A stretch of 64,000 nt of DNA from Tribonema minus (Eukaryota > Sar > Xanthophyceae > Tribonematales > Tribonemataceae), in NCBI GenBank assembly GCA_017506865.1, contig JAFCMP010000146.1:62001-126000 (forward strand). The letters run 5' to 3'. The notes under the pieces were generated by a model that had not been told where the DNA came from, ran no database searches, and saw only the letters and a program-made list of their open reading frames with translations. Below, in pieces: positions 1 through 61,631 of the stretch. A program made the translations under genes and the position numbers. Position 1 is the first letter of the stretch. The number at the start of each line of letters is the position of its first letter.

Positions 1-499
1 CGGCTCACTGGCGGCAACGCTCCTGCATGCCGGTGTGCGCGGCTGGATGCGCGGCACCGCTCGCGCCGACGCCGCACCTGCGCCTGCGGGGCGATGAGCA
101 GTGCGTGACGAAGCCACACCGCGCCCGCCGCGCGGTGTCATGGGCACTGAATCAGTTTTGTGCGACCCCCCTCGTGCCCCTGCTGCCATGACCGGTCAAC
201 GCAGCCGAGGGTCGGCAAGTGACAGTGTCAATCTGCAACCCTTGCGTGCATGCGTTCAGCCTCTGTCCTCAATACCCCATACCTTTTTCCCACTGCTTGT
301 GGAAGCGGCCGACCAGCCCGGGGCCAGACCGCCAGTGGTGGCACCCCCTTTGAGCCTACCATCACCCCTCGACAACCTGCGCCTAATCTACTCCCCCCCC
401 CCCCCCCCCGCGGGGCCCAACCCACTGCAGTTTGCAGTGCACAGCACCAGGGGGTACTCACCCCCCCCCCCCCACTCCCCTCTGCCCAACCCACTGCAG

Positions 500-1036
500 T
501 TTGACGTGGACGAGCGCCAAGAGGTGACCGCCGCGGTGCAGCCCGCCGTCGCCGTGGAGCGCATCTTCGCGTACCTGCGCGCGACCCTGACGGCGCGCGT
601 CGCGTGCGGCTGCAGCGCAGGGCGCGCGCCGCCGCCGCCGCCGCCGCCCGCCGCCGCCGCCGCGTCGCCCTTCGTCAGCGCGAGCAGCGGCAGCAATGGC
701 ATCTTTGCGCACGGCGGCGGCGGCGGGGGCGCTGCAGGCGCGTCTGCTGCTCGCCCCGCAGCAGCGGCAGCGGCGGCAGCGCCCGTGTCGAGCGCTGTTG
801 GGTTTGGTGGCGAGGGCGGCGCGCTCGGCGTGCTCAAGCACGTGCGGCTGCGCAAGGGGCTGCACCTGCGGCGGCGGCGCGCGATGGCGGCTGCGGCGGC
901 GGTGGCTGCGGCGGCGGGGCGCGGGGCGGGGGGGCGCGGCGGCGGCGGCGGCAGGGGGAGGGGGGGGCTGTGGCCGCGGCTGTGGTGGCGGCGGCGCAGC
1001 AGCAGCGCGAGCGGCAGCGACGACGAAGAGGACGAT
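500..1036 (+). other. TMEM94-like exon with Ala/Gly/Arg-rich insert
   Basis: Open phase-0 exon from the acceptor at 498-499 to the GTGAGT donor at 1037. It begins FDVDERQEVTAAVQ and VERIFAYLRATLTARVA, then runs into Pro, Ala, Gly and Arg tracts and ends in an acidic SDDEEDD. The first 40 or so residues look like ordinary folded sequence; the remainder is GC-repeat low complexity that could be a disordered loop. A copy of its acceptor plus first bases lies at 424-440. Placement in TMEM94 rests on frame continuity with the next exon, not on residue identity. Confidence 0.5.
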
Positions 1037-4000
1037 GTGAGTGAGGGCGATCAGCCAGGGTTAGGGTTAGGGTTAGGTCAGGATAGGGTGAGGGTGAGGA
1101 TTAGGGTAAGGTTAAGGTGCTGCATAGCGCCGCGATGGCAGTGGCCCGGCCTCGCCAAAAGCAGATGCGGCGAGGGGGAGCATTATCTCGGTCCTGTTGC
1201 ATTACCTGTGCCTCACAGTGCTTGTGTGTATGTTGCGCTGCGCTAAGCCATTGCATCCACGGCAGCGGCAGAGCAGGCCAGGGGGCTGGCGTGAGCGTGC
1301 TTCAGCCATGATTACTCCCATCACGGAGCTTCGTTTGAAACGTGTTGAGCGCTTTTACCGCCTGCAACATACCCGCACTTGAGTGACAGTGATGGCCGCG
1401 GATAAGCAAGGGCTCATAAAGCCCACATTCTCTATACCATACACCTGGCTTCATTTTCCACCTCAACATTTAGCATTGCGTCTCGTTGCATGGCGTCCGG
1501 GCCTCGCAACTTCGTCCTGGATGAGTTCCCCCTGACATCCCATCAAAACTCAGGTTTTCTCCAGCAAGGACCCAAGTACAAGTAGCTGTGCTCGCTGTCC
1601 ATGCTTGACATCAGTTGTTTGTGGTCCCTTCTCATTGCTGCTCGCTGCTGCCACAGGAGGTGTCACTGGCCGACATGGGGATATCGCAGCACGGGCATCA
1701 GCCCGCAACCTCAGGTACATACGGTATATGTACTTCTAAGATTTGCATATGACATGTATCAACTAGGGGGCTTGCCGCTCGTGGCAGGCATGCGAGACAG
1801 GCACCCACGGTACTCCACACATATGTTGGTCCTCCCATGTGAAGATAGCCCCTTGGAGTGCATTTGCGAGTGCTGAGTGAGGGGGGCGCATTTCGCTGGC
1901 CCAGGCTGCTCCGCCGTCATGACGATCAGAAGCTGCGCTGTGGTGATGCTCAGCAACTGAACTAGCCATGAATCATTTCCTGCCGAGCAGTTCCGGTCCC
2001 ACAAAAATTGATGCGAACGATTTCCTGCCGAGCATTTCTGGTCCCACAAAAACTGTTCAAAACAAATGCAAATCTAGGTATGGTATGCAGCGCACCTGCT
2101 TGGCAGAGATGGGCGGGCGGCACCACAATTAGGTTGGCCCTAACCCCGCCTAACCCAAAGCCTGACTTGCGCTCGGCGGTGACCCATGTGAAGTTGATGA
2201 AATCGACAATACCCCTACTATCCGTGTCTGCATGAAGTGCAATGCACAACTCAGCGTGTTCAAGAGCGTGGCCCTGGCCGGCTGGTCAAAGACCCCGCTT
2301 CCCCCCTTGCTCCATGTGCTGACACGCTTTGCACGGTGCTCATGCGGCAGTTCAACGGTGTGACTGGTTGATGGTCCCCTCCTCCTGCCGCTCCTCACGC
2401 TCCTCATTGCGACTGTTGGCCACTGGATAAAGACCCCTCCCCCCCCCCTTGATGAATACCCCCCCACCCCGTGTCTTGCTCCTCATTGCCCTATGACAGA
2501 GAGCACCGTCAGCCGGTGGGCGGTGAGGGCGTGGGGCGGCCAACCGCTGCTGACTGCATAAAGACCACCCCCCCCCCCCCCCTTTCTCTGAATAAAGACC
2601 CCCCCCCCTGCTCCCCCCCCCCCCTTGATAAATACCCCCCCCCCCCCCCCCCCGTGTCTCGCTCCTCATCGCCCCTATGACAGAGAGCACCGTCAGCCGG
2701 TGGGCGGGGTGGGCGTGGGGCGGGCGGCCGCTGCTGCCCGTGCCGCTGCTGCGCAGCCGCCTGCTGGAACGGCTCGGCGCCGTGTCGATGCTCTGCATGC
2801 TCGACGAGGACACGGTGTGCGAGCCGCACGCCGCCGTCGAGGAGCTGTTTGTGCTCGACGCCAAGGTGCGCGTCCGCCGAATGTACCGCGAGCGTGCGTT
2901 TTTATGTATGCTGTCGTGTGGTGGTGGCAGGAGGGCGCTGTCTGCACAGCGCTGTGAGATGGTTGCACTGGTGAGATGCTTAAGCTCCTACCGGCAGGAA
3001 GTATATACCGTGTGTCACACGATGTGTGTACCTCAAAGTATATACTTCAAAGTACAAGTTTGTTTCCTGTGTTTTTGGCAGGTGGGCGATGTCCGTACGG
3101 CGCTGTGAGAAGATTGCCCTGATACGCGAGCCGCGGCGGCACTCGTGCACGCGTCGACATGTTTCACATATGCTCTGCAGGCGTGGTTTGGGGAGGGAAG
3201 GGGAAGGGGGGGGACAAGACGCCACGGTCCAGAGTGTGTCACCTGCTGCATGTCATCGCAGGATCAAGTCCATCTGACAGTCTGGTGGCGGAGGGCGATT
3301 GACTCTGTCTCCGCCACGCAGTCTGCTCCCGCTGGCGGTGTAATGGGGGGATCAGGCATAGGATGGGTGCTTTTTGCAAGCCCCCGGGGAAGCTGGCATC
3401 GTGCAAACTGTGGAATCATGGCGCACTCCAAGACAGCGCTCAACCTGCACACGTTCAGGCGTCTGAGGCCCCGCATCGCACCACACTTGGGCACACGCAC
3501 TCGCGTCGCTCGAGCATTGCTGGGGTCGTCGGGGGGTGATCCACGCCAGCGTACCTGTAATTATGTGCTCCCATTACTCGAGCGCGCCACCACAAATGTG
3601 AATCATGTGCGCTGCGTCGCTGGTGCGCACACTCGGCAACATGCCGAGGTATGATGCAATCATGGTGGTGTTTCCAGGTGGGGGTTGCACGGTAACAGTG
3701 CGCAACCGCTCAACGCCCACGTTGGCGTCACGCGCTGTGCAGCATCCCCGGCAGTCGGGGGCAAAACATAATGTCCTTTGCTTATATATATTTATATACA
3801 CATGTGTTGTCATTGCTTTGGTACGCACATGCAACGTTGTCACGCGTACTTCCCCAAGCGCCACGCCAACCGCGTCGCGCAAATGCCGCCTTCGCCGTAC
3901 CCGCCGCCAGCAGCTGAGCAATGATGCCTCTGCGGTGACGCTCCGCAGGACGAGGGTGGCACGGGGACAGTGCTCGACCTGCACACGCTCGCGTCTGAGA

Positions 4001-7000
4001 CGGGCGTCCACTTTGAGGACACGCAGTGGTGGACGCATCTGTCCACGCTCAAGCCCATTGGTCTCACGTGCCTGCTGGCGGAGGCCCGAGGCGCTGAGGC
4101 GAGTCTCGTCACGCGGTTCTTTGACTTGAAGTTGTACATCTGAGACTTATCTGTCCACGCTCAAGCCCATCGGTCTCACGTGCCTGCTGGCGGAGGCCGG
4201 GGCGCTGAGGTGGGTCTCCTGCCCGTGACGGAGTAATTTTCAAATCGACGTACTTTTCATGTTGAAGTAATTTCCATATTGAGGTTCTTTATCTGGGACG
4301 CACCTGTCCGCGCTCCAGCCCATTGGTCTCACGTGCCTGCCGTTAAGGCCCGAGGCGCTGCGGTGAGTCTCTTCAAGTGATTCTCCAACCTGAAGTTCTA
4401 CATCTATGACGCACCTGTCCACGCTCAAGCCCATTGGTCTCACGTGCCTGCTGGCGGAGGCCCGAGGCGCTGAGGTGAGTGATTGCATGTTTCTTCACTT
4501 TGAAGTTATACGTCTGGGACGCACCTGTCGACGCTTAAGCCCATTGGTCTCACGTGCCTGCTGGCGCAGGCCCGAGGCGCTGAGGTGAGTCTATTCAAGT
4601 GATTCTTCAACTTGAAGTTATACATTTGGGATGCACCTGACCACGCAAGCCCACTGGGCTCACGCGCCTGCTGGCGGAGGCCCAGGGCGCTGAGATGGGT
4701 CTCCTGCCTGTAATTTGAATGCTGCTCCAACTTGAAAATCCACATCTGCGAGTATGTGTAAATGTTCGAGCCCATTGGTCTCACGGCGGAGGCCCGAGGC
4801 GCTGAGGTGGGTCTCTTGCCGGTGATTGAATTATTCTTCAACTTCTTGAAGTTCTACATCTGTGACGCACCTGTCCACGCTCATGCCCATTGGACTGACG
4901 TGCCTGCTGGCAGAGGCTCGAGGCGCTGAGGTGGGTTTCTTGCCTATGATTTGAGTGCTGCTTCAACTTGAAGTCATACATCTGGGACGTGCCTGTCGAC
5001 GCTCGTGCAAGTTCTGTCACGTGCCTGCTGGCGGATGCCCAAGGCGCGCTGATGTGGGCATCCGAGTGATTCTTCAACCTGAAGTTATACATCTGGACGT
5101 TTGTGTCAATGCGTGCGCCGATTTTCGTACAAGGCCTGCTGGCGGATGCCCGAGGCGCGCGCTGAGGTGGGTGATTTGGCCTGTGCTCATCAAACAATTG
5201 TTCAATTTGAAGTTACACATTTAGGACGCACCTGTCGACGCTCGAGACCAGCGGCCTTGCACGCCTGCTGGTGGAGGCCTCAGCGCTGTGCTACAATCTG
5301 GATGCTCAGCCGTTGTGAAGTTGAAGTTTTGCAGCAGGCGAGCCCACCGACCTCACATGGTGGCAGAGGCCCAGGCTTTGACGTACGACTATGTGCTTGG
5401 CCCCAAGAGAACTGACAAAGGTGTAGCTCAAGGTGGAGTGTCCCTGTCAAAACTTGCAATTCGCTCTTTTTAACATCTGTTACGCGCTCGCGGCTCGTGT
5501 CGTACCGCAATACTTACATGAAGGAGCACTGGCTTGTCGAAAGCGCAAAGCTCCGCCCTGCTGCCCTGCTCACATGAGGTGGCACCTCTCGGTCCCACCT
5601 GGGGTACGCTGTTCTGTGATACAGGTGAGCAGCAGGCAGGGTGGCGATCCCAAAAGTCGTCAGATGCGGATGTAGAAGTATGCAACTGCCAATCAGCGTG
5701 TTTCACCTGGCAACGCTGCTCTGCGCCGCAGGTGAGCGGCAGGCAGGGCAGCAAGGTGGCGCCCCCGAGCCTCGTTGGATGCGGATGTCCGCAACTGCCA
5801 ATCAGCGAAACGCATACCGCTTAACCAAAGGAGTAGCACAGCAAGTTGACCGAAACGTGCACCGAAACCGGCACTTGTTTCAAGCGACACCGCTGTTCTT
5901 CTGCGCCGCAGGTGAGCGGAAGGCAGGGCAGCAAGGTGGCACTCCCGAGCCTTGTCGGCGCCAGGGGCGGCGCCTACAGCCGTGTGGACGACGCAAGTCA
6001 CCCCCACCCCGCGCACCTCAAGCACAGGAGGGGGCCCGACGTCGCTCTGCTGGAGCATGTGAGCCTGCGCTTTGTCGTTCGTGCTTTGCACTTTTTCACT
6101 GAGTGAGAAGTAATACACCGGTGTTGAAGCATGTGGTGGTATGCGCGATGGAGCTGTATAGCACCTCAAGCATAGGACGGGGCTCGATGTCGCTCTGCTG
6201 GAGCATGTGAGCCTGCGCTCTGCGTTTCTCACTTTGCGCTTTGCAATGTGTGAGAAGTACTGCATTGGTGTTGAAGTATGAGCGGTATGCGTTCTGCGGC
6301 CACTGCGGTTTGGAAGGGGTCGTGTAAGTGGTTCGAAGTTTTGGTGTTGGCGCATGCAAGGCTGTTTTGACTAGAGCATGCAACGCTGTGCCAGTTTCCT
6401 TGCCCTTTGACACAAGCTGTGTACTTCAGAGGTGTCAGTTAAATGCGCCGTTTATGGCCTGATAAGGAAATCCATGCTGGCGTTTTCGGAATGCTATTGA
6501 AAAGCTCAGATCGATGCTTTCGAGAGTGATGAACTCACTGACATCAAGTGCGTGTGCCTCTCCCTTGGCCGCACGTGCATCGAACAGGTTCGCCACACCA
6601 TGCCCATGGAGCATCTGCTCGACCTCTCGCGCGAGATTGGCTTTGGCGAGGCGGACCAGGTGAGTCACAATGTGAAGTTGAATATACCTGTTTGAAGTTG
6701 AAGTTGAAGAGGTGTGGAAGTTGCGCAGTGGCGCAGCGAGCTCACATCGTTCGATCTCATTCACTGCAATCTTTTCGGTACAATCGGGAGACGTCACGCT
6801 GCAAACCATATGTTGAAGAATGCTTGTACTGTATGTAGCACTTCACGATGGTCACCTGTATGCGCTTTGGCGTGCCGTTGCGCGATGTTTGCGATGGCTG
6901 CTGAAGCGCACAATTATCATGGCGTGACGATGGCGCGTGATGATTCACGGTGGTGATGCTCAGTGCAGTTGCGCAGAGGGCTTTCCTTGCGCTTCACGCA

Positions 7001-10000
7001 CTGTTCATACCCCATGATGACCATTACCGTTGTACATCCTTGCGATGCGCCAGCTGTTCAACGAGTGCGGCGGCTGTTGCTGCTCATGATGATCACGAAG
7101 TTGCGCACTTTGTCGACAGCAGGTTTCGTTGGTGGCTGCTTGTACCCGCCTGCTGCGCTATCACGCATCACACCAGTGTAGCAGACGCCCTACTCTGAAA
7201 CCTAACCTGGGATCCAGCCCTAGCAGTGAACCTCACTAAAATCACACCATGCATTCTGGTGAGCAGATGGTGTTTCGAGAGCGGAGACGCATCCACGTCA
7301 TCAACCCGAAGCTGGCGGCGAGCAGGGTCACGGAGAATGCCCACGCACAAGGCAAGTGCACTTAGTATGTGGTTGTATTGATTCCCCCGTTCCTTCCCAT
7401 GCGAAGCCTTGATCCGCTCCCATGCGCACAGTGATCACCTGCATGCGGCACCCAATGGTCCGTGCACACAAGCGCGTCTTCGAACATGCCTGCGAATAAC
7501 TACAAGCGCCGGTCATGACACTCATTCGAAGCTGAAAGCGCAGCAAACCGGTTCCACTCTGCGGTGGCGCAGATCACCCTCCGGCGCAGGGCTGCGGCTC
7601 CAGCGCTTGCTGTGCGTCGGATGCGCGGCAACAGCGCCGCCATAGCGCTGTCGTTCATGACGCCGGTTTGCTGCTACAAGTCAGATCGCACCCCTGCGCG
7701 GTTTCACGCGCTCACGGGTTGGAGAGACGATTGCGGCGCGGCACAGCTCAGCCGCACGCCAAAGGCAGCTGATCAGGCAGCCGCGCCAGTACCTGCACTG
7801 TACGGTGCGAGCACCACTTCATCCTGCCCTTGAGAGGGGTGGGGGGTCATTGAACTCAACATTTGCTCCCCGCGCCTACTTGAGATCACACCGCGCACGG
7901 ACTCACGTGCACAGTAAGGAGGCTCGGCGATACGGCACGATAAAGCTGCATGTTCAGGACGCCGTGTTTGAGGCCACGGGCACATTGCACGGTGCAGCGG
8001 CTCAGCATAGCTCATGGTGTCCTACTCTTGACAGGGGCGCTCACTGAACCGTACGGCTGCTTCCTGCACGCAACACGCACTTCGAAGTGTGAGATTGCGC
8101 ACGTGCACAGTTTTGCAGGGCACGAGGAGACGCGGCGGCGCGGCACGATACAGCCGCACGTCAAGGGCGTCGTGGTGGTGGACCGGCGCACACGCGCGCT
8201 GCAGCTGCTCAGCGTATTTCATACTTCAGTACGCATTTCCTCGGGAAGACAGGGGCTCACTACACTCTGCAGCTGCTTCCTTTTAATAAGGCTGATGGGC
8301 CCTGCACGGTGTCCCGTGCAGGACACGAAGAGACGCGGCGTCGCGGCACGATACAGCCGCACGTCAAGAGCGTCATGGTGGAGGACCGCCGCACGCACGC
8401 GCTGCAGCTGCTCAACGTATAGCATAACAACACTCTTACAGCTGCTTGATCGCGTCTGTGCGCGGCTTCCTCACACGCGCAGGGCACGAGGAGACGCGGC
8501 GGCGCGGTACGATCCAGCCGCACGTCAAGGGCATCATGGTGGAGGACCGGCGCACGCGCGCGCTGCAGCTGCTTCCTTGCTTGATTGCGTCGCGGTTTTT
8601 GCCCACATGCGCAGGGCACGAAGAGACGCGGCGGCACGGCACCATTCAGCCGCACGTCAAGGGCGTCGTGGTGGAGGACCGGCGCACGCGCGCGCTGCAG
8701 TGCTCAGCTTATACTTCTATCATTCAACGCTCTTACAGCTACTTCCTTTCGATGAGGCTGATGTAGCGCTCTGCTTGGTGTCTCGTGCAGGGCACGAGGA
8801 GACGCGGCGGCGCGGCACGATTCAGCCTCACGTCAAGGGCGTGGTGGTGGAGGACCGGCGCACGCGCGCGCTGCAGCTGCTGAGCGTCGGCAACCCGTCG
8901 CTGCTGCTGACCATGTGCGCCGACTACTGGGACGGCAGCACGATATCGGCAATCCCCGCGGCGCTCAAGAGTGCGATCCTCGACATGTACCAGCAGTGGA
9001 GCCTGGTGCGCGACTGTTCATTTCATTGTTGAAGTACTTCAAGCGCTTCGGTATGGTTGTGGCAGAGATGAGCGGTGACGCAGTGCGTCGTGGTCAAGAG
9101 CGTGATCCTCGACATGTACCAGCAGTGGAGCCTGGTGAGCGCTGAGGAGCAATTATTCATGAATGAATTCATTTCATTTCAGTGTTGAAGTTCTTAATGC
9201 TTCAAGCGATATCGGCCATCCCCGCGGCGCTCAAGAGCGCAATCCTCGGCATGTACCAGCAGTGGAGCCTGGTGCGCGACTGTTCATTTCATCGTTGAAG
9301 TACTTCAAGCGCTTCGGCATGGTTGTGGCAGAGATGAGCGCTGACGCAGTGCGTTGTGGTCAAGAGCGCGATCCTCGACATGTACCAGTAGTGGAGCCTG
9401 GTGAGCGCGCAGGACCGACTATTCATGAAATGCATTTCAATTCACTTCATTGTTGAAGCTCTTGATGCTTCAGCACTTCAGTGTGGTTGTGGCAGTCTGA
9501 GAGATGAGCGCTGACGCAGTGCGTTGTGGTCAAGAGCGCGATCCTCAACATGTACCTGCAGTGGAGCCTGGCGAGCGCCGATGAGAGGCTGCTTGTTGTG
9601 TGTATCATTGATGTCCTGACTGCTTCAAGCGCTTTGGTATAGAAGTAGGTCAGAGACGTGAGCCGACGCAGTGCGTTGTTGTTGAGAGCGATATTTTTGG
9701 CGTGTGCCAGCAGTGGAGCCTGGTGAGCGCGGAGGAGCGACTGCTCATTTCATTGTTGAAGTACTGCATACTTCAAGTGCTGAATACGTCGAGCGCTGAA
9801 TACTTGAAGCACCGACTACCTCAAGCGCTGAATACTTCAAGCGCTTCAGTGCGGTTGTCGCAGAGACGAGCGTTGCTGCAGTGCATTGTTGTCGAGAGCG
9901 CCATCGTTGGCGTGTGTGAGCAGCGGAACCTGGTGAGCGCGGAGGAGCGACTGTGTGTGTACCGTTCAAGTACTGAAAGTAATAATTCTTCGGGTGCTGC

Positions 10001-15460: not shown

Positions 15461-15492
<32 letters not shown>

Positions 15493-35033: not shown

Positions 35034-39882
<4,849 letters not shown>

Positions 39883-40850: not shown

Positions 40851-40859
40851 CGCTTCCGT

Positions 40860-41970: not shown

Positions 41971-42159
41971 CGATCGCAGCTGCCAAAGCCTTCCTCTCCA
42001 TGTTCTCAAGCGCCTCAGGATGTACATCACTTGAGCGAGCAAGTTCAACTTCAACTTGGCAAGACGCTGGTTTGCACAGCTCATCAAGCCATTCCCTTGA
42101 TCTTGAAGCACAGCGCCCCCCAAGAATAGAAGACGCAGGCAAACTTGACTTGATCAACA

Positions 42160-43480: not shown

Positions 43481-44273
43481 TCATTTGGCGGCGGCGGCGG
43501 CATTCGCGGCGGCGTCGGTGTTGCTGGGGAAGGCCTTGCGCGCTATCGCGGCGATGGCGTCCTGAAGGTAGTCGGCCATGGCCTGCTGGCTGTTGCGCAG
43601 CGCGAGCGTGCGCGGGACGCAGCCGTCGGCGTCCTCCGCGGCGACGCTCGCGCCTGGGGCGGCGGTGACAGCGGCAGCGTGTGGTTTGGTGGTAAGCGCA
43701 TGAGGCACACGCGAGCAGTGTCATTGTTCACTGGCGCGTGATGGCACGCTCGGCAGCGTCGGGGCGCGGCGCTCGGAGCGATAAAACCTCCACATGACCC
43801 ACCGGTACCGGAGCTGTAGTACGCAAACAGCGCCATTGCTACCAGAGCGGAACTACGCTGATTGCACCCGCTGCAAACCCGCCAAAGCACCCGCTGTTTC
43901 CGAAGCCACTCACCGTTGTTGACCAGCAGGCACGCGACCTCCAGCGCGCCAGCGGCGGTGGCATCCGTACATACTGAAACACCTAGTCCACAAGTGGTAT
44001 ACACTGCTGCCAACGAAGCAGCGCCACCGCTACCAGAGCCGCACTGTACCGATTCGCACCACAGCGCTCACCATTATTCACCAGCAGGCATGCGACCTCC
44101 AGCGCGCCGGCGGCGGCGGCGCGGTGCAGCGCCGTCGACCCGTCCGCGTCGCGCGCGGCCATGGCGCCCTTGCGCTTGGGCAGCCGCGCCAGCGCCGCGA
44201 GCGCCGTCGCGACGTCGTTCTTGTCCGCAGCGCTCAGCAGGCGCTGCTCCGTGGTGCGCTCGTCGGGAAAGGC
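43481..44273 (-). other. Ankyrin repeat exons of the ArfGAP
   Basis: Exon 44273-44072 codes TEQRLLSAADKNDVATALAA, then RDADGSTALHRAAAAGALEV and LLVNNG. Exon 43653-43481 continues ASVAAEDADGCVPRTLALRN and AMADYLQDAI before an Ala/Asn-rich tail and stop. The join across the intron makes one continuous ankyrin unit, supporting the exon calls. About two and a half repeats. Confidence 0.85.
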
Positions 44274-47200
44274 CTGCGCGCGGCAGCGGCGGCGCACGGC
44301 GCAGAGGGGGGGGCGAGGGGGGGTCAGGGGGCGCGGTGGGTGTAGCAGAGAGAGGGGGGGGGGCGGGGGGCGCGTTTCGTGGCCCGCTGCCGATGGCAGG
44401 CGCTGCTCTGTTTTGGGCTGTGAGAAACGGCAAGAGGAATGAAACAAATGCATCCCAGCGTCTTCATGTAAAGCAAGTGGAGGTTGAGGGGTCATAAACT
44501 TGTGTGTTTCTGTTTTCAGGGTATTGTACTGGATGCCACCAAAAGCAACAGTAGCACATGCTAAAACGAAGGTACAATGCGGCTTATCACAGCCAATTCT
44601 GTTGCAGTACTTTATCATAGAAGTAATTTTCAAGTTGACTCGTCTGAACCTGCTCGTAGCAAGTGATAGACCATATGACCTTCTTCAGAGCAGCATGCGC
44701 ACGTGCCACAGTGGTGTACCTCTGGCTACAATCCCTGTGTTCAGAACTTCAACTTCAACTCACCTCGTCCACGGCCACAAAGAGCGACTTGGTGTACTTG
44801 TCGGTGACGTAGCGCTGGCGCTGCTCGTCGCTGGCCTCCGGCGACAGCTTACTGTACTCGACCTGCCAGAGCGGAGTGCACGATAACAACACCCCTCGCC
44901 GCTGTGAGCACAGCCGGCGTGCATCGCATGATGCACTTACCGAAAGTGCTATGTGCCACACACACGTCATCATCGCTAATGTCATCATGGTAGTGCACTT
45001 CATAAGAAGCAGAGAAGGGGGCACACGCCTTGCCTCCTGCGCAACCGCCTCATGTCGTCGGCTTCAAAATTGCTGACGACAGGAGCACAGCCAGTGATGT
45101 CAGACAGCGGATAGCACCTTCTAACAAACAGGCGAGGAGGGCAGCACGTCGAAGATTGCTATTTAAGAGGGTTTTGAGGGGCCATGCTGACCCCGTACAT
45201 GCATACTGCAAGGTACTAGGCGCAGCGCATCTGATGATACCACTGACATCGCACGTCATCCTCCACTGCACGCAAGCATACAGTTATCATACCTCCCCCG
45301 CAACCGCTTCAACTTGTTGTCTTTAAGATTGCTGATGACGGGAGCACAGCCGAAGATGGCAGACAGTATATGTGCGCCTTCAGAAGAGCAGGCGAAGAGG
45401 GCACTGCAGCACAACTTACATCACCTTGTAAATTCTGAGTCTGTACGTATATACGTGCATGGCTCCCGGCGCAGCGCATCTGATGATACCGCAGAGATTG
45501 CACGCCACCCTCGACTGCACACGAATCTACAGCCATCATGCAGGGAGATGACGCATTCGCTAGCGACAGGCGTTGTCCGTGCGCAGGGCACTCACCTCCG
45601 TCGTGTCCCCTTCCCACAGGTCGTTCGACCTGTCGTTGCCGATGGCGAGCGCCAAAAACACGTCCCCCATCTCCAGTGTAGCGCTGGACAGCGCCTTTGT
45701 CTGCGGGCCCAGGTCAACGCGCAGGAGAAACGGCACAAGGGGGAGAGTTGATGCCCAGCCAAACTTGTGGCGAGACCTCTGATCCGTCGGAAGTCGAGGG
45801 TTCGATGACGATGAGCAATCGGGAGCAGCGCCCCCCCCAGTCGACAAGCTTCATGGCCGCAAACGTGGCAGCCGAGGCAGCCCAAGAGACCTTGCCCTTG
45901 CCGCTGCCTCAGCTGCCACCTTGCTCTTGGGCTGCCTCAGCTGCCACGTTTGCGGCCAGGGAGCTTGTCGAATGGGGGGCGCTGTTTCTGGGCCAGGCTG
46001 CTCGTGGCCTTGCCTAGCTACGCAACAACACAGCAGCCATCACGCTGAGCCAGTCACGCAGTAGACGATGAGCAACCAGGAGCGGCGCCCCCGCAGTCGA
46101 CAAGCCCCCTGGCAGCAAACGCGGCAGCCGAGGCAGCGGCAAGAGCAAGGCCAGACGAGGCCTGTCTGAGCAACCAGGACATTGCCCCCCGGTCGGCAAG
46201 CTGCCTGGCAGCATACGCGGTAGCCGGGGCAGCGGCAAGGGCCTCGCAGCCCCAGAGGCATCTCTCTCTGGGCTGTGAGGCCTCTCTGGGCCTTGCCCTT
46301 GCCGCTGCCTCGGCTGCTGCGTTTGCTGGCAGGGAGCTTACCAACTGGGGGGCGCTCTTTCTGGGCTAAGCTTCTCTTGGCCGTGCCCTGCCGCTGCCTC
46401 GGCTGCCACGTTTGCTGCCCCAGGGCTTGTCAACTGCGGGGCGCTGCTCTTGGTTGCTCATCATCTCCAGCATGACTGGCCCGGCGTAGTGGCTGCTGTG
46501 CTGTTGCGTGGCTAGGACAGGACGCAGCCACAGCCGGTCGTCCGTTCAGCCGTCGATTGCACCCAATGAGTTCCCTGAACGGTTACGGCCAGGAAAACGG
46601 AAAAACACTCACACGCACAAGAGCTATGGGTGGCAACACACTGAGAGGAGAACACAGCAATGCCTCACATGCGAGTGAAGCTGATCAGCTGGTGCGATGA
46701 GGGCGAGGAGAGCACGCTTGCGTCTGCTTCTGCCTGCGTCTTCCAGAGCGCCATAATCATGCACGGCGGAACCTGCAGCGCACAACTGTTGTCTGCAAGC
46801 CACGTGCAGCAGCAAGCCCCTGAGCTTGAAGCCTGTCACTGGCTGCGGGGGTAGACCCGCCCTTTCTCCCCCTCTCTGTCTCCCCACCACGCGCCCATCG
46901 CAACGAGCGCTGCTGCAAAAGACGCACATCGATACACACGAAAATCCACTGCCGTGAAAGCGGTCTATCGATGCATACGGTTCGCGCGCGCTACGCACCT
47001 GCGACGCGCCTGTCGCCGTGTGCGCCGCCGCGCACTGCCCCTTATCAAAGTCCTTCAAGAACTATAGCAATACTCACGCATTCGCTGCCGCAAAAGCGGT
47101 ATATCGATACGCACACTGCGTTTGCGCGCGCGGCGCACCTGCGAGGCGCCCGTCGCGGTGTGCGCCGCCGCACACTGCTCCTCACTCAAGTCCTTCAAGA

Positions 47201-50200
47201 AGTATAGCAATACTCGTGCACTCACTGCCGCACAAGCAGTACATCGATACACGCACACTGCGGTCGCGCCCCCTACGCACCTGCGAGGCGCCCGTCGCCG
47301 TGTGCGCCGCCGCGCACGCGCCGCACACGAGCACGCCCAGCCCGACGCTGACGTGGCTCGGCTCCGCGGCGCCGCAGTCCGCGCACATGTCGTAGCTCTC
47401 GCGCAGGAATGCGACGGACGCCACGAGCCGCGACTTGTGCAGCCGCTGCAGCGGCGCCGGCGGCGAGTTGCCGCTCTTGAAGCGGCTCTTGTACGGCGAC
47501 GGCGCCTCAAACGGCAGCACGCGGCTGCCGCCGCCGGCGGCGGCGGTGCCCGCGGCAGCGGCGGCGCTGCCGCTGCTGCCGCCGCTGCGCCCGCTGTCGT
47601 TGGACGGCGCCTGCGTTGCGGGCGTCGTCGCGCTGGCGGCGGACCTGCTGCTGCTGGTCGGCGCGCTCTTCGGCGTCGCCGGCGCTGCCGCCGCGGAGGA
47701 GGCGCTGCGCGGCGTCTTCGGCGCCGCCGCCGCCGCCGCCGCTGCCGCCGCCCCCGCCGCTGCCGCCGCCGCTGCCGCCGCGCGCAGCTCCCCCGGCGTC
47801 CCCGGCGCGCGCGGCATGTGCGGCGTTGTCGCGGGCGGCAGCAGTGTCTGCTGCGACTGCGACGGCGGCGCGAGGCTGGAGAGCTGGAACATGGAGGCGG
47901 AGCCCTCGGCGGGGCCGCGCGCGGCGGCGGGGGGGGCGCGGTACGAGGGGGATGGGGCGCTGCTCGGGCGGACGCTGGGGGGAGAGGGGGCCTTCGTGGA
48001 GGGCGTCGTGAGCTCCGGCTGGTTCGACTGCTGGTTTGGGGAGCAGTTCTTGGGTGGGAGCGGGGGGACGCTGTAGTCGCTCAGCAGACTGCTGGTGGGC
48101 AGCTGACAAGCGGACGTTGAGGGGTGGGAAGTGGGGGGAGGGGGGTGAGAATAGGCTGCGCGCTATGGGGACGTTGGTGATAATGCACTTGCAATCAGAG
48201 GAGCGCTTCACGAGGTGAGGCAAGAGGTGATAGCTGGCAGATGCAAACCGCGTGCGGCTGATGCGTTCGCGTGGCACCGACAACAGACACAAGATGTGCA
48301 CAGATGCCATTGGCAAGCGTTGAAGGCCCACAGGCTGTGCGGTTTGACTCAGCCATGCAAGCAGTGATTGGGGGCATAAGGAATCATCACTCCAGCCTGA
48401 CACTTTCTAGAAACCATGCAACTACCCTTCCGTTTGTACAGTTGAAAATGCCGACGGCCATACATACCGCTAGCAGTGGGAGGCCTCGCACCCAAGCACA
48501 CACAGACACTTCGGAAGCAGAGACTCTGTGAGGCACATGCCATGTCCACAAACTGAGCGATGCCACCATACACGAGCGTCCCTGCAATCATAATTTGATG
48601 AGGGCGCTGCATATTGACACAGCGCTCAGCGGCGATGCGCGCGCACCTGCGAGCGGTGGAACGCTCGCAACACAGCACAAAGCGATACTTCAAAGGAGCA
48701 ACTAGTCAATGCGCCCGCAACGCAACACAGGCGTCCCTGCCATCATAATCATTGTTCAACAGTCACGCCCATGAGCGTGACACATCGACTAAGCACACGC
48801 CGCGGCGATGCACGCGCACCTGCGAGCGGTGGAACGCCTCGCACCACAGCGCAAACTCGTACGGGCCCTCCGCCTGCAGCGCGATGGTCTTGCGGTCAAA
48901 CGTGGTGATGTCGATGCGGTAGCGCCGCTTCTCCGTGTCGCTCACGTTGGCCTGCCAGCCGAGGGCCCCCGCGCCAACGTGGCTCAGGAGGGTGCGCGTG
49001 CCGGCGACGTAGCCTGGCGCGCGCGCGGGCAGCGATGCTCCGCGTGAGACCGCAGCGCTTTAGGGTGTTGTGCGTATTCGCGTAACCAGCGCGCCAAGTG
49101 ATGACAAAGCTTCGAAGGTTGACATTTTGGTGATGATATTGAAGAAAACTTGAACATGATGGTGATGATGGGAACAGGCCTTATGTAAGGAGAGCGAAGT
49201 TTTTGCAAAACGTCTGGACAGGCAGGAGCATGTGCACCACTGCTTGCTTGGCACTGACCAGCAAGACTAGGCAGACAGCTGAAGCAGCATACTAGCTGGT
49301 AGGCTAGCATAGAAAGCGGTTCCTAGAGAACTCCGCACCTTCGTCGCCCGGCGCCTGCCAACAAAACAGCCCCGAGCGCGTGAGCTCGAACCAGCGCCGC
49401 ACCCACTTGCGCGCGAAGCGCGTCTTGTGCGAGCGGTGCAGGTAGCCTGCGCGGATGCAGTCGGCGGGGCGCTCGCTCGCGCCGAGCTCCGGCACCGTGT
49501 CACTCCACGCGCGCAGGCAGTCGGCCTGCGCAAACACAGCAGCGCTCAAGCGGTGAGGGACGCGCAGCTCGACTGGGCCTGTCCGAGCTTCAGTGAGGTT
49601 AGAGATGATGTTGAAGTTGAAGTTGAAGATACAGTCCGCGGGGGCGCTCCCTCGCGCCGAGCTCCGGCACTGTGTCGCTCCACACGCGCAGGCAGTCGGC
49701 CTGCGGTAGGGCTAGAGTCAGGTTGAATGCGGCGCGCGCGGATGGAGAACCGTGAGCGGCGCTGCTGAGCAGTGCTGCTGTGCATTCACTGAGACCGCCA
49801 ATTGTGGCAGCAGAGGACGTTGGTGGTGGCGTGCCTGTGCGTGGTTCATGCGGACAGAGGCGCTGCCGTGCAGCTCATGCGCAAACGCAGCGCTCAGGCT
49901 GTGAGGGACGCGCAGCTCAACTGGGCTCGCCCGCATGCGGGGCGCTGCGGAGTGAGCTGTGATATGATATTGAAGTTGGAGTTGAAGGTGAAGTCCTTGA
50001 CGCGCGCTACGCCGCATTGAGTCCGAAGTCTCACGTCTGACATCATGACATGCGCGCCCGTGTACCTCTAAGTCTGCCTAAAAAGTACATTCCTGCTATG
50101 TTACGCGGCGCCGCATGTGACCTGCACGGCGCCGTGGGCCGGTGCGATTCGGCATCTTCCAGACGTGCACCAGCGCCAAGCATCGCCCTGTGCATGACGA

Positions 50201-53200
50201 CGGCCCATGTGACGGCTCCAGAAGACAACATGATACACCTTAAGAAGTACAAAACATGCGCCTCTAGAGAAGCTCCAGCGGCATTCTCTCCGTTGACTCT
50301 GTGCTGCCGGTGCGGCACCTGCGCAAACCGTCGCCGCGGCCGTGTCCTCCGGGTGGGCGGTACACAATCTGCCGCAAGACGCGGAGTCTGGTTGCACGCA
50401 CGCGCGACACACTGTAAACAACGCACTTGTATTCTCAGGTGGTTTATCAACTTCAACTCAGCTCTTTGAACTTGACAGCCGCACGTCACCTGCGCAAACG
50501 CCGTCACCACGGCGGTGTCCTCCGGGTGCGCGGGCGTGCGCGGCATCGCAATGTGCGCGCACTGCGGCGGGATGCGGACAGCTCCGGCAATGCGCGCGCG
50601 ACATACTTGAAGTATCACACAGGTGGGTCTCCGTGTAGAAACTGCAACTGTCCCCTTTCAACATCCAAAAACAGCACGTCACCTGCGCAAACGCCGTCGC
50701 CACCGCCGTGTCCTCGGGGTGTGCGGGCGTGCCCGGCATCGCGATGTGCGCAAACTGCGGCGAGACGCGGACCGTGATGAGCGACTCCAGCGACGCGCGC
50801 ATGCCCGCCGCGCAACGTGCGCTGAGCGCGTGCTTGAGGTGCGCGCCGTGCCCCTTCCACGGCTGCCCCTCCGAGAGCCACGCATCCGTCTCGTCCTGTT
50901 TTGCAGGGGTCGCGGCGGCGGCGGCGGCGGGAGAAGAGGGGACCAGGGCTTAAAAAGAGTGAAGTTTTTGCGATGAGAGTCTGGGAGAGGCAGCAGCATG
51001 TGCATCACTCCTTGCTGGGCACCGACCAGCAAGGCTAGGCACACAGCTGTAGTGGAGTACTAGCTGGTAGGCTAGCGGGAGAAAAGGGGGCGTGTGAGGC
51101 GACTAGATATGTTGCCGGGTTGGGAGGGACTGACGGGTGCTGCGCGTTTCGCAGTGGTGGGGGGAAGGGGGGCGTGCGAGACGACCGGCTACCTGGTCTC
51201 GGGGGGGCTTGACCAGTGTGGACACACATGCCTTTTGGGTACATTCGCGGGTCATGGCGGCGTGGGGGCATGGGCTCATGTGGGCTGGCTGATTGGTACA
51301 GAGTGCGCACGTACGACGCATAACCACTGTAATTGATACATACGGTGTGGAAGGTGTAGTATGCGTGCCTGATTGGTACAGGTGGGAATGCTCCAGATCT
51401 ACGCAGACACAAGCGCCGGGTGAGCGCCGTGAGAGAGGTTTAGGATTGGTTAGCCTGACCCTAAGGTAGCCCTGAGCGTGTGCCTCTGCCTGAGCACTGA
51501 AGCGCTCTCAGCGTGCGTGCATTCGCCCCCCCCGCGCCAGCAGCGCAACTGTGTCAACGCTGTAGTGAAGGCGCGACACGAGACATGGAGGATGCCAGCG
51601 TTCGGTCTTGCAACGCACTCAGAAACTGTGGACGCGTTGAGCTGAAAGCAGCGACCTGCAGGGTGCGTGCTCGCGAGCGGCGCTCGTGGAGCACTGCCTC
51701 AGGCTGCTGTTGCGCAGATTTGAATCGATTTCATCCTGCTTGCTGACGCGCGACGCGGTCAGCAAGGTATGGCCTGGTGCCGGCGTTGACTGGCATCACG
51801 ATGGATCGCCATAGTGCTGGCGTCGATGGCGCCTCCACCAAGCTCTCAAACTTCAACCTTTTCACTTGATAGCGCTTACGTACTGTGGCCGAAGCTGGGC
51901 AAAATCCGACCGCAACCACACCATTTGAATTCTCGCATGCCCTTGCACCAATACATTGGTTCCTGGTACACACCATCCCCCTTTTGTCCGCAGTCATACA
52001 CATCACCAGCACTGCCACAACGAGCAGCGATAATGATGTACTTGAAGAGTTGAAGTAGTTGCTGCGCTATACATACCTTAGAGCTCTGCGCGTCGTCGAA
52101 GACCTGCTTCATCGCGCTTTATCCGCAGCCATACATATCACAACACTGCCACCTGCCACCACAAGGAGCGGTTAATGATGTACTTCAAGACTTGAAGTAG
52201 TTGCTGCGCTATACATACCTTGGAGCTCTGCGCATCCTGGTACACACCATCCCCCTTTTATCCGCAGTCATACACATCACCAGCACTGCCACAACGAGCA
52301 GCGATAATGATGTACTTGAAGAGTTGAAGTAGTTGCTGCGCTATACATACCTTAGAGCTCTGCGCGTCGTCGAAGACCTGCTTCATCGCGCTTTATCCGC
52401 AGCCGTACACATCACAACACTGCCACCTGCCACCACAAGGAGCGGTTAATGATGTACTTCAAGACTTGAAGTAGTTGCTGCGCTATACATACCTTGGAGC
52501 TCTGCGCATCGTCAAAGATCTGCTTCCGCGCGCTCGCCACAGCGGCGCAGTTCCTCAGGTGCTCTGTCAGGCTGTTCCCCAGCGCGAGCACGCACTCCGC
52601 CAGCATCGACGCCTGTCCCCGCAAGAGCAACACTTCAAGTTGAACATTCGTGGCGCGTGCGCGCTTACAGGGTGAAGCGCAGGCGTTGATCCCGGACGGC
52701 AATATGAGGAATACACCAACTTCAATGATGCGCTTCGTAAACCTCTACGGTGGCGTACTTGCTACAACTTCAAAGTGCGCGCTCGTCGCAGCACTGAGGC
52801 CAAACATATGTTTACTTTACATGAATAAAAAACCAGAGGGTAGTGACTGGCTACAGTTGAGCAGTGCAGGGCACGCAGCGCGCTTCCTTTACACAAAAAA
52901 GTGTTCACGATAGTGCAGTTGCCATTCACGAGGCCAGACGCTGCGCTCCGCCTGCCAGTTAGGGGAAGACATCGGCATGCAGTGACTCGCACACAGGCGA
53001 ATTGCTGTGAAAAGCGTAGCGCTGCAGCGTTGTGAGAGGGCGCTCTGCGGCTGCACCATCTTCACCGCACATTCCCTTGCTTCAGCACAATGCACCACAC
53101 ATGCTGCCCAGCATGAATTGTTGCACACATGAGTGCATCAGTGAAGCAGCGGTTGCGCGCCTGACCAACGTGCCGTGCCATGACGACCATGCGCAGTCAC

Positions 53201-57728: not shown

Positions 57729-60700
57729 ATGGACTCCCTGCTCAACTTTGGCATGTCTAAGGTGGACGGCGCAGCGGAGGCAGCTGGCTTTTCTCCCTGG
57801 GGGCAGAGCGCCGCCTACTCTGTCAAGAATGCCGCAACAGGTACACAAGCGCCAAGCTCTGTGCAGCACGGAAGGCATCATAGCTTGTTTTGTAAGATTC
57901 CTTTATTTGCGTTGCAGCTGACTTCGCGTGTGCTGCACAAAATCGTGTTTGAGGATAGATCATTGATCGCAGCGCGCCGGATCTACGTTTGGCTGTACCA
58001 GATAAGCTGCTGTACCTCTTCTATGATTATGGCAGTGGTGGTGGTGCCAATCTCAGCCCAGCTTGGCGCCTCTTGAGTTCTAGATTTTCGTCTGAGCTTG
58101 AAACTGCAACATTGGCTGTCATGGTTCCTTAGAGTTCCAACAATCCTTACGGCTTCACTGCGACCACTGTGGTGTGATTTCGTTGGTGTGGATGGTGAGC
58201 ATCCATGGGCTTTCCTCACATTGGCCTTGACATCCTGATGATCTACGCTGCAATCCTCAAAATTGAAAGAGACAAATCTAGTAAGCGAGCCCACTGCAAT
58301 GCCAGGGCAAGCAGCAGGGCAGCAGGCTTGAACTTCAACTTATCCGTTGCGGTGGTACTGAAGGCCCTTCAGGATGTAGCGTCGGGGGGCACTGCCGTTT
58401 ATGCAATCTGTCTTGCTGCACACAACATAATCTAGATAGCTAGGTCATGTAATACATCACATAGGCATCAACCAAGCTGTCCAGACATCAGGCATTTAAC
58501 TTCGCGGGCACACCAGGGTGGTGGGCTGGGACCAACTCATTCGCGACACAACTTCTCAGGCGATGCTGTGGCGATGACCTGATTCTCTGCCGCAGCTCCA
58601 CTGCTTCCTTGCTGACTGCTCATCAGGCATTCAGCATTCTCGCGATGACCTGGCAGTGGGTAACCTGCACTTGCGAATAATCTGCCGTATTCATGGAGGG
58701 TCTTGCTATGTAAGTAGCAGGTGCCCCGCTAGTGTTGAATAATTTGATGATTGTTTTCTGGTGGGGAGCCTGAACCAGCAGACCAGTGTGAGACCGCAGT
58801 GTCACATTCTGAAGCGCTGGTCGGCGATGACACAGATGCATATCAACTTTACGCACTTCAACACCTGATGACGTGCAGACAGAACAATCTTATGGCATAC
58901 CTGGCACATATCGCTGAGCCGCTTGCTGCAATGAGGGATTGCATGCCGACAGCGCGACTGGCCACGCCTCCAAGTCAGTGCTCACCCTACGCTCTGCCCT
59001 CTGCTGCTGCTGCTCATACTGCTATATGTCACTCTGCTGCGCGTTGTCATCAGGCATGTACCTGGCGGCCCACAAGGACGGGGAGCTGGTGGCCGAGGAC
59101 AATGATCTGCAGCACCACGACCTGGTGTGGCGCATCTTTGAGCACCCCAACGGTGAGGCCACGTCATAATACGACGACTAACCACACCTTGTCACTTAGA
59201 GCTCTACGATCTTTTGATTCGTTTCCATTATAATATGTGCCTCGCAGAACCCTGATGTCACTGCGGAGCCTGTACACGGTCAGCGTACGCTGTTGCAATG
59301 CTGGCCCGTTGTACGATGGTCATGTCTGCTCCAGGTTGCGGCGCGTTCTACTACTGATTTACTGAGTGAGCAGTGTTGAGCAGTGCACACTTTCGAAGGG
59401 CGAAGCGAAATGTGCTCAGTTCCATTTTATGCTAGCAGCTTTAACCTCTGCACAACAATGGCACTTTGGCCGCCGTTGGCAGCGGCTGCGATGACTCGAG
59501 TCATGATCATGAGCTGAATGATGTAGCCAAAGATAAAAAAACACAATTCAATTTCATGTTTTGAGTTAAACCAACACAAGCAGGGCAGGATTAATTTGCG
59601 AGTGCTATGATAACAGCAGTTCTAGAACAGAGCTCATGGAACTATAAATGCGAGAATATTATAATGATCAACATCTCTATGCACACAGAAGTCTTTGTGA
59701 CCACTGCGGATATGGTGGTACTGTTTGACTCGTGGCCAATTGCTGCAGCAGTGGCGACCACGGTTATTGGTGGAAGGCGCTTGCGGCCAACCACTCCTTG
59801 TCACCTAGAGCTCTACGAACTTCGTGTTCATGACATGATTACATTTCTTGGAATGCTATGAGGTCCCCATGCCGCATGCGACTTGCTTTGCTGTACTGGT
59901 CCTGCAAAACAATGGGTGGTGGTGTTGTGTGGTTTCAGGCATAACACCCGGAGCTGGCGTTAATAAATACTATACTTTCTCGTGCTCGTGCATGCAGCCA
60001 GGCAGTGTGGCGTCCGCAGAGTTGCCCGCGTGGACCTTATCTCCGGGCCACGTGGCTGCAGCCAACAGTCAAAGTATTTTGGACTACTTTGTTCATGTAC
60101 ATACTACAACTATTTATAAGTACGTATGTTGCAACTAGGTTTCTGGGGCAGTCACTTAAAAACTTCGTTCAAAGTCATCAATGACTCATTTCAGCTTATG
60201 GTAGCTGTTGCCCCCTGGACTCTATTTGGACGCAGCGTCTTTTTTTCCTTGAATCAATATATAGAAGTATCAGTCTGTTCAATATCACCCATGGCCCATC
60301 TACTGTACCTAGTGTGCGGCTGCCGTCCTCGCCTAGACTCTGCATGCCATTGGACACGACGACGCGGCGTTGCAGTCCCGCCACCTTTAGGGTTAGGGTT
60401 AGGGTTAGGGTTAGGGTTAGGGCACGCGACTGCATGCCATGGCACCGTAGCCAGCACCGACTTCACAGGATGACGCCAGCTCGGTACCAGACACGACAGC
60501 CATGTATACGCACTCAGTAAAGTAATGCGCATTCACTCATCCTGTCATCTGCTTCCACTGCCACAGGCAGCGTGGCGCTGCAGTCCTGCCACGGCACTTG
60601 GCTCCAGGCCCACGGCAACTCGCCCAACTCTACCGCGACAGAGCCGGCGGCGGCCGCGCACTGGAAGCTGGGCCGCTCCGGCCATGGCGGCCACACTCTG

Positions 60701-61631
60701 CAGTCCCACAACCACCAGTTCCTGAGCGCTGTGCCGCCCGTGGAGGGAGAGGTGAGCTTTGATGATCATCCGATTCGCTTCAGGATGGCAATACTTGTGT
60801 AGTCGAAGTAGAAGATAGTATAAAGTGACAGTAGTATAAGTTCCTGTTGCTGTACTGGTAGCAGTAGCAGTGATAGTCAGCCTTTTGTTGACAACATCAC
60901 ATTGGTAGCAGTGGAGCGCTGTGCTGCGTGTGGAGGGAGAGGTGAGCTTTGATGATCATCATTTCAGGGGCCGCAGTGCTTGCAGAAGAAGCGCATGGTA
61001 AAACTTGTAGAAAAAGCACCTGGTAAACTGCATCTAATGACGATAGTATCAATGTCTGCTGCTGTAGTGGTAGCAGTAGCAGTGATGGTCAGTGTCTTCG
61101 GTTGACGAAGTCACATTGGTAGAAGTAGCAGTTATAGTCAGCATCTCTTGTTGGGCCAAATCACATTTTTTTGTGTGTTGTATCAGCACATGGCAGTACA
61201 ACATAATGTGACAGTAGTACAGATTTCTATTGTTGTATATTATGCTAGCGATAGCACTGATGGCCAGTGTCTCTTGTTGTCAAAGGCACCTTTTCTGTGA
61301 GTGGTCAGCCTGCTGTACATCATCTTCATTGAAGATTGGAGGTTCAGTGTGTCTGTGCGCTCGAGGCCCTGGGATGGCCAGTTCTACAGCTCTCTCAGCC
61401 ACCACAAGTTGAGCTATGATTCATCCAATGAATTTCATTGGCTATACTTCAATGCATTTCAAAGGATGCCCCCTGTGGTCTTCTCACTCTTTGCCGCCTC
61501 CTTCCAATCGTGCGCGCCAGCCTGCAGTTCTCCTGTACTCGGAGGCAGAGGGCCCTTCCAGCACCTGGGTCGTGGGCCCCATCTCCGCCACCACAGCGCT
61601 GCTGAGCCGTGCTGAGGGCGCCGTCTTCTAA
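57729..61631 (+). CDS. Fascin-like beta-trefoil protein
   Basis: Exons 57729-57840 (ATG, MDSLLNFGMSKVDGAAEAAG, ending SVKNAATG), 59054-59152 (MYLAAHKDGELVAEDNDLQ, then VWRIFEHPN) and 60567-60751 (SVALQSCHGTWLQAHGN, HWKLGRSGHGGHTLQSHN and HQFLSAVPP) join in phase. The continuous sequence shows the beta-trefoil/fascin pattern of V-L-x-S-x-H-G-x-Y/W-L-x-A repeated with W-x-F/L strands. Further exons include FSVSVRSRPWDGQFYSS with HWLYFNAF near 61335-61450 (borders not resolved) and 61528-61631, ending SRAEGAVF and a TAA stop. Fascin-like trefoils often bind actin or sugars; ligand and location are unknown. Confidence 0.6.
60386..60422 (+). repeat. Six-unit TTAGGG tract in the beta-trefoil gene
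   Basis: The longest perfect interstitial tract in the window, TTAGGG six times in sense orientation, about 145 bases before the acceptor at 60565-60566. Confidence 0.95.
60905..60962 (+). repeat. Donor-side copy of the 60567-60751 exon end
   Basis: GAGCGCTGTGCTGCGTGTGG followed by AGGGAGAG and GTGAGCTTTGATGATCATC repeats the exon end and first intron bases from 60723-60770, one copy about 185 bp downstream. The intron around it also carries repeated GTAGCAGTAGCAGTGATAGT motifs (60865, 61070, 61125). Confidence 0.85.

Follow-up and report, generated by a model that had tools for sequence, protein, structure and literature searches.

Tandem repeat arrays straddling exon-intron borders in a 64-kb window of the Tribonema minus genome

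In a 64,000-nt stretch of the genome of the xanthophyte Tribonema minus (assembly GCA_017506865.1, contig JAFCMP010000146.1, positions 62,001 to 126,000; hereafter the window), the edges of many exons are repeated in the intron that adjoins them. Each such copied border, here called a decoy, lies on the intron side of the true one, and tandem copying of exon-intron borders into introns is confirmed as real in the window. We consider it likely that these are tandem repeat arrays which straddle the exon-intron borders and are anchored by the constrained exon edge.

Exon-edge copies at exon-intron borders

The data are confined to this one 64-kb window, with gene models taken from a hidden Markov model (HMM) trained on the window itself and supported in parts by Pfam and PDB. 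A TMEM94-like gene occupies positions 500-28777 of the plus strand (match to PDB 9ywq, 1.8e-30). The other genes identified encode a histone deacetylase (Pfam, 2.7e-32), a ubiquitin-conjugating enzyme (domain search, 3.9e-21), a PH-ArfGAP-ankyrin protein, on the minus strand (Pfam and PDB searches), and a fascin-type beta-trefoil protein (domain search, 2.8e-5). The gene names given in a preliminary description of the same DNA hold. The HMM itself called decoy edges as exons; from its 72 exons, 35 were kept and 37 were dropped as decoys, tiny or unsupported. With one exon of the ubiquitin-conjugating enzyme gene added by eye, 36 curated exons with 67 testable borders were obtained, three kept exons having had an end shifted by hand (6058, 32462, 49525).

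Self-blastn of the window returned 128 repeat pairs, of which 113 were direct and 15 inverted. In the edge test, a 45-nt exon edge had to outscore, within the adjoining 1500 nt, all 150 distant stretches. As many as 24 of the 67 borders (12 donors and 12 acceptors) passed by a significant copy in the intron next to them, compared to only two passes among the 67 on the opposite side (Fisher 1.2e-6), one of which was a 57-nt exon whose own edges overlap. Control 45-mers, for which the threshold differed slightly from that of the edge test and both sides were searched, had a local copy in 2 of 36 cases when drawn from exon interiors and in 22 of 138 when drawn from intron interiors, eight of the latter lying inside or adjoining border arrays. 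Acceptors 3949, 44273 and 60571 pass the edge test without a border-anchored copy, and the arrays at 500 and 16690, which are blastn pairs that fail it, were included to give 23 arrays. Within these, 49 decoy borders were anchored (45 by scan and four placed by hand, at 4209, 4362, about 50338 and about 431), donor copies lying downstream and acceptor copies upstream. An extra copy added by hand at 20822 was used from the decoy-decoy comparison on, and stands outside the 49. Taken together, these results bear out the earlier placing of the copies on the adjoining side, and its figure of at least 25 copied borders is about right. Its statement that the copies account for much of the intron length was overstated, as the arrays cover 9,638 of 37,613 intronic nt, or 26%.

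Neighboring borders within an array are spaced 43-374 bp apart (median 154), with 44 of the 49 spacings falling at 110-240 bp, and Tandem Repeats Finder called head-to-tail copies of the unit in several arrays. By strict extension in the 23 arrays, the copy nearest to each border holds 4-95 nt of exon (median 46). No nearest copy contains the full exon, and whole-exon duplication was therefore rejected. In 12 of the 23 arrays the intron homology of the nearest copy ends less than 10 nt past the splice site, and the filler beyond it was compared to the further intron and to 200 distant stretches (p of 0.04 or below). Eleven of the 12 fillers match deeper in their own intron, within 34 bp of the position expected from the copy (for 49525, from twice the period). 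These matches show that whole units, intron included, were duplicated and that their intron part has since become far more diverged. The description of a copy as exon code, splice site and some intron is upheld by the anchored copies and the filler matches alike. Larger duplications, comprising more than one unit, were seen in the arrays of 52493 (274 bp at 98.9%) and 9005 (266 bp at 91%); in the latter, intron types alternate by our reading of the alignment. Multiples of three are not in excess among the copy distances, as read without a formal test.

Which of the repeated sites the protein needs was judged from homology. With the decoys left out, 16 of the 18 TMEM94-like exons match human TMEM94 (1.8e-30). 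One strong stretch of this match (7.9e-21) joins 9005 collinearly to 10406, and 16690 to 17201; six decoys accompany the 9005 donor thus crossed. Ankyrin matches lead across the 44072 donor to 43653. The 47281 donor is likewise crossed by an ArfGAP match, which reaches 45700, as judged by its listed span and not by its alignment. At the few array borders crossed by a protein match, the innermost site is the one that the protein needs. The geometry previously described, with the full exon at the inner end of the array, is supported. It needs no special rule, since after duplication of a border the protein is preserved only when splicing uses the inner copy.

Decoys have diverged from each other more in their intron than in their exon parts. 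Nine of the ten arrays with at least two decoys were compared (24774 was omitted). In eight of them divergence is about 9-20% in the exon parts, against about 22-55% in the intron parts; unrelated 60-mers differ by 58%. Codon positions were counted in 22 of the 23 arrays. Changes private to one decoy number 30, 20 and 35 at codon positions 1, 2 and 3, and changes on the lineage of the working copy number 2, 1 and 9, which is the pattern to be expected when the working copy alone codes. Selection for coding probably does not maintain the outer copies. Decoys serving as coding cassette exons were rejected, the decoy-private changes having no clear codon pattern, although pooled counts lean to third positions.

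The splice signals of the decoys are mostly intact. AG is kept in 18 of 19 decoy acceptors as anchored and in all 19 after re-anchoring by eye; GT is kept in 24 of 30 decoy donors as anchored and in 26 of 30 after re-anchoring (three sites were re-anchored overall). Between decoys, GCAG is unchanged in all 14 acceptor pairs scored, and conservation steps sharply at the splice signal. Flanks have diverged in 15 of 20 decoy acceptors, with a pyrimidine content of 0.62, compared to 0.61 at true acceptors (n=35) and 0.49 at background intronic CAGs (n=678); anchoring was poor in this analysis for the copies near 48626 and 50338. Judged by sequence, the decoy splice sites look usable, and the outer copies are probably spare splice sites without use.

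Origin of the arrays and rival explanations

Observed unit lengths were placed at random, excluding placements that were wholly exonic or held a whole exon, and 19% should straddle a border by chance. As many as 23 of 30 arrays do so, compared to 5.7 expected (p 9e-12). Seven rows had first been dropped from the intron-only list (14699, 31730, 32050, 39550, 40649, 49539 and 61006) for low complexity, for lying outside the four gene spans or for adjoining a border array; with these counted as intron-only, the figure is 23 of 37 against 7.2 (p 1e-8). As exon edges decay more slowly, border repeats stay visible for longer. Ten of the 23 border arrays are visible from their intron parts alone, a rough figure, since the containment rule scored only 15 of 23 even unmasked. 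With visibility so equalized, 10 of 17 straddle a border compared to 3.2 expected (p 3e-4), or 10 of 24 compared to 4.7 with the seven rows restored (p 0.011). The border preference is firm as seen, but after correction for visibility it falls to only two- to threefold and is less secure.

On the explanation by tandem repeats anchored at the exon edge, segments usually of 110-240 bp, mostly with 20-95 nt of exon edge, the splice site and some intron, would have been duplicated in tandem, which can be read directly from the repeats. Some arrays would then have grown by duplication of several units, as from unequal exchange or slippage, and this step is partly visible in the two large duplications. 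The innermost copy would be spliced, as protein homology indicates at a few borders and as may hold elsewhere, leaving the protein unchanged while the outer copies become intron; a border duplication would be tolerated because splicing at the innermost site leaves the mRNA unchanged. Selection holding the working exon edge constant would keep the units similar there, so that the edge could remain a place of exchange and conversion; border arrays would then persist and grow, and intron-only repeats dissolve. A constant edge that favors exchange or conversion would account both for the good preservation of the exon edges and for some of the border excess.

A number of observations weigh against this explanation. 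The exchange or conversion it invokes is inferred, not seen, and the gene models underlying it come from an HMM of one window. At the other array borders, where use of the innermost site is inferred, homology is weak or absent, and the further TMEM94 stretches are of low significance (0.11 to 44). Since arrays of the same gene are non-independent, the p values above are guides only. One filler of the 12, that of 26589, has no match deeper in the intron, and that of 49525 also matches on the exon side (p 0.04). If decoys were simply neutral, their exon and intron parts should diverge alike, which is not what was observed. The decoy-decoy comparison has its own exceptions: the 52493 array is reversed (0.286 in exon, 0.067 in intron), the 26763 array is almost equal (0.200 and 0.224), the 50683 array includes a badly anchored copy, and three of the nine arrays rest on a single decoy pair. 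By our reading of the differences between decoys and true edges, copies do not become clearly older or younger with distance from the exon. Pooled differences between decoy and true edge number 33, 39 and 99 by codon position, and 13, 15 and 38 in single-decoy arrays; this third-position lean is compatible with a degree of coding constraint on decoys. For neutral decoys to fit these counts, by arithmetic, mutation at third positions must be faster by a factor of about 1.4-1.5, of which there is a hint in the decoy-private counts. The lean may reflect synonymous change in the working copy, multiply counted in multi-copy arrays, together with faster mutation at third positions.

Other explanations were weighed on the same data. 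It is unlikely that the outer copies are under selection for a working role as redundant or regulatory splice sites, either as exon mimics that gather splicing factors or as alternative sites. The conservation step at the splice signal, the largely intact AG and GT and the pyrimidine content of diverged decoy acceptors would all fit such a role, but that content may be mere inheritance and several decoys are related to each other; moreover, decoy donors have lost GT about as fast as the exon edge has changed, and decoy-specific changes have no clear codon pattern. A duplication process specific to borders, in which transcription, splicing-linked R-loops or phased nucleosomes cause breaks or slips and leave repeats of about nucleosome length, could produce both the observed spacings and the excess that persists at equalized visibility. 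That excess is weaker with the seven dropped rows, longer survival of border repeats could supply part of it, and no hallmark of such a mechanism was found; we regard this process as doubtful. Quite unlikely, in our estimate, is the wider proposition that exon-intron borders of this lineage are preferred birthplaces of tandem repeats whose exon-edge copies are kept as working spare sites, giving a genome-wide redundancy of splice sites that also lengthens introns.

The short homology past the splice site (at most 9 nt in 12 of 23 arrays) is also what would be left by a mobile, introner-like insertion with long target-site duplications, in which an element comes to lie between two exon edges. 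Since 11 of the 12 fillers match deeper in their own intron, that is, match further units, target-site duplication by an inserted element is disfavored; no self-blastn pair connects the fillers of two arrays, and we consider such insertion very improbable.

Catalogue of arrays and other repeats

Coordinates of the 23 arrays. Positions are those of the window; true borders are those of the curated exons.
Feature	Positions	Strand	True border and copies	Evidence and remarks
TMEM94-like acceptor pair	389..519	+	true acceptor 500, copy about 431 (hand-placed)	blastn pair, offset 66; fails edge test
acceptor pair	2459..2736	+	true start 2684, copy 2500	blastn, edge test, scan
donor array	4031..5290	+	true end 4098 (GC donor); copies 4209, 4362, 4474, 4584, 4694, 4806, 4930, 5051	blastn, Tandem Repeats Finder, edge test, scan; 4209 and 4362 hand-placed
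acceptor pair	5720..5952	+	true start 5932, copy 5752	blastn, edge test, scan
donor pair	6013..6291	+	true end 6058, copy 6206	blastn, edge test, scan
acceptor array	8114..8887	+	true start 8791; copies 8119, 8322, 8483, 8615	blastn, edge test, scan, decoy-decoy comparison
donor array	8941..9953	+	true end 9005; copies 9134, 9271, 9400, 9570, 9722, 9932; two-unit 266-bp duplication, 91%	blastn, Tandem Repeats Finder, edge test, scan
donor pair, short and weak	16680..16813	+	true end 16690, copy 16733	blastn, scan; fails edge test
acceptor pair	16939..17267	+	true start 17201, copy 16962	blastn, edge test, scan
acceptor array	20450..21649	+	true start 21568; copies 20645, 20822 (by hand), 21019, 21202, 21379	blastn, edge test, scan, decoy-decoy comparison
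donor pair	22658..22863	+	true end 22702, copy 22860	blastn, edge test, scan
acceptor array	24102..24803	+	true start 24774; copies 24684, 24594; runs into 48-bp intronic tandem repeat	blastn, Tandem Repeats Finder, edge test, scan
acceptor pair	26395..26620	+	true start 26589, copy 26395	edge test, scan; intron filler without match further in
donor array	26738..27118	+	true end 26763; copies 26917, 27039	blastn, edge test, scan
acceptor array, last TMEM94-like exon	28023..28683	+	true start 28628; copies 28046, 28223, 28456	blastn, edge test, scan, decoy-decoy comparison
deacetylase donor pair	33112..33344	-	true end 33293, copy 33123	blastn, edge test, scan, filler match
ArfGAP gene donor pair	43909..44120	-	true end 44072, copy 43914	blastn, edge test, scan, filler match
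ArfGAP gene donor array	46949..47326	-	true end 47281; copies 47139, 46999	blastn, Tandem Repeats Finder, edge test, scan
ArfGAP gene donor pair	48618..48855	-	true end 48799, copy 48626 (splice site lost)	blastn, edge test, scan, filler match
ArfGAP gene acceptor pair	49454..49705	-	true start 49525, copy 49700	blastn, edge test, scan, filler match
ArfGAP gene donor array	50313..50772	-	true end 50683; copies 50490, about 50338 (by hand)	blastn, edge test, pairwise alignment, scan
ArfGAP gene donor array	51961..52534	-	true end 52493; copies 52351, 52219, 52077; two-unit 274-bp duplication, 98.9%	blastn, Tandem Repeats Finder, edge test, scan
fascin-type beta-trefoil donor pair	60724..61126	+	true end 60751, copy 60941; 2 adjoining units	blastn, edge test, scan

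The modeled working donor at 4098 reads GCGAGT, and several of its decoys have GTGAGT or GTGGGT. Local tandem repeats without a curated border lie at 18301-18626, 23267-23560, 45033-45539, 45807-46453 and 54832-55072; the last abuts donor 55075 and carries a decayed donor, and some of the unassigned repeats may therefore be border arrays too.

Other repeated sequences were also seen in the window, in which the G+C content is 52-64% in 4-kb steps. The motif AACTTCAA/TTGAAGTT occurs about ten times as often as expected (43 times on both strands of the whole window, compared to 4.3), mainly in introns, with examples at 6660-6740, 10525-10630 and 44700-44763. GAAGTTGA occurs 20 times in sense and five times in antisense over five gene spans, soon after several donors. 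Self-blastn also revealed four dispersed copies (17030-17158, 22082-22222 in reverse, 49170-49317 and 50938-51076) of an element of about 115-145 bp, which are 76-86% alike and lie in the introns of two genes; the last extends 11 nt into an exon as modeled. Short telomere-like tracts of the TTAGGG type lie in or near genes (1057-1111, 30854-30881, 32048-32399, 60387-60422). Introns of the TMEM94-like gene carry long, sense-biased poly-C runs (70 octamer hits in sense, 4 in antisense), several of them near acceptors, with examples upstream of 2684 and of 10406. The window gave no match to Rfam (gathering threshold) and none in a tRNA scan, and a search for related loci in viral contigs and genome contigs confirmed no relative.

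Related systems and significance

Tandem exon duplication, in which whole exons are copied with both splice sites, also repeats exonic sequence within a gene; here only one edge is copied. A minisatellite has a unit of roughly 10-100 bp and is length polymorphic between individuals; the present arrays share its head-to-tail copies, and their spacings (median 154 bp) are mostly above that range. In human IFI6 (6-16), the subject of a 1995 report by Turri, Cuin and Porter, a minisatellite is described as supplying multiple splice donors (PMC4526556). There, a single exon of one gene obtains several splice donors from the units of a tandem repeat, all at one donor border, and two downstream units are used as donors; the arrays in the window differ in lying at 23 borders, both donor and acceptor, with a spacing mostly of 110-240 bp, mostly 20-95 nt of exon and outer copies that are apparently unused. 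The IFI6 unit reportedly has 12 nt. In potato RdRp, according to one account, a tandem duplication crosses an intron-exon boundary and includes the acceptor and part of the exon (PMC4974935). That geometry is the same as in our acceptor pairs, but potato RdRp is there said to have gained a new intron, whereas our copies sit inside an existing intron and form arrays. Tandem duplication has likewise been invoked for novel intron positions in Drosophila (PMC2891723). Rather than a new intron position, what was found here is the exon's own edge in the adjoining intron, ancestral positions not having been compared with another species.

Introners copy themselves into many genes (PMC7789003, PMC9860276), and in Amoebophrya they carry inverted repeats as well as 3-5 nt direct repeats (PMC7789003). 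Repeated sequence at intron borders is a shared feature; unlike introners, each array here copies its own exon edge, and self-blastn found no filler family shared across arrays. The inverted pairs, 15 of the 128 self-matches, come from a comparison not aimed at short terminal repeats. IFI6 and potato RdRp are single precedents of the same kind of event, and the view that copying of this sort lacks precedent is not supported. In the literature collection searched, we found no account of such arrays recurring at numerous borders in many genes.

If arrays of this type are common genome-wide, they would offer a direct route for the lengthening of introns and for the origin of cryptic splice sites. 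Having dozens of defined exon edges naturally duplicated next to the original in use would make it possible to test how the spliceosome chooses among near-identical sites in a row, and to measure the rate at which unconstrained edges decay. Gene predictors, for their part, are liable to call such decoy edges as exons.

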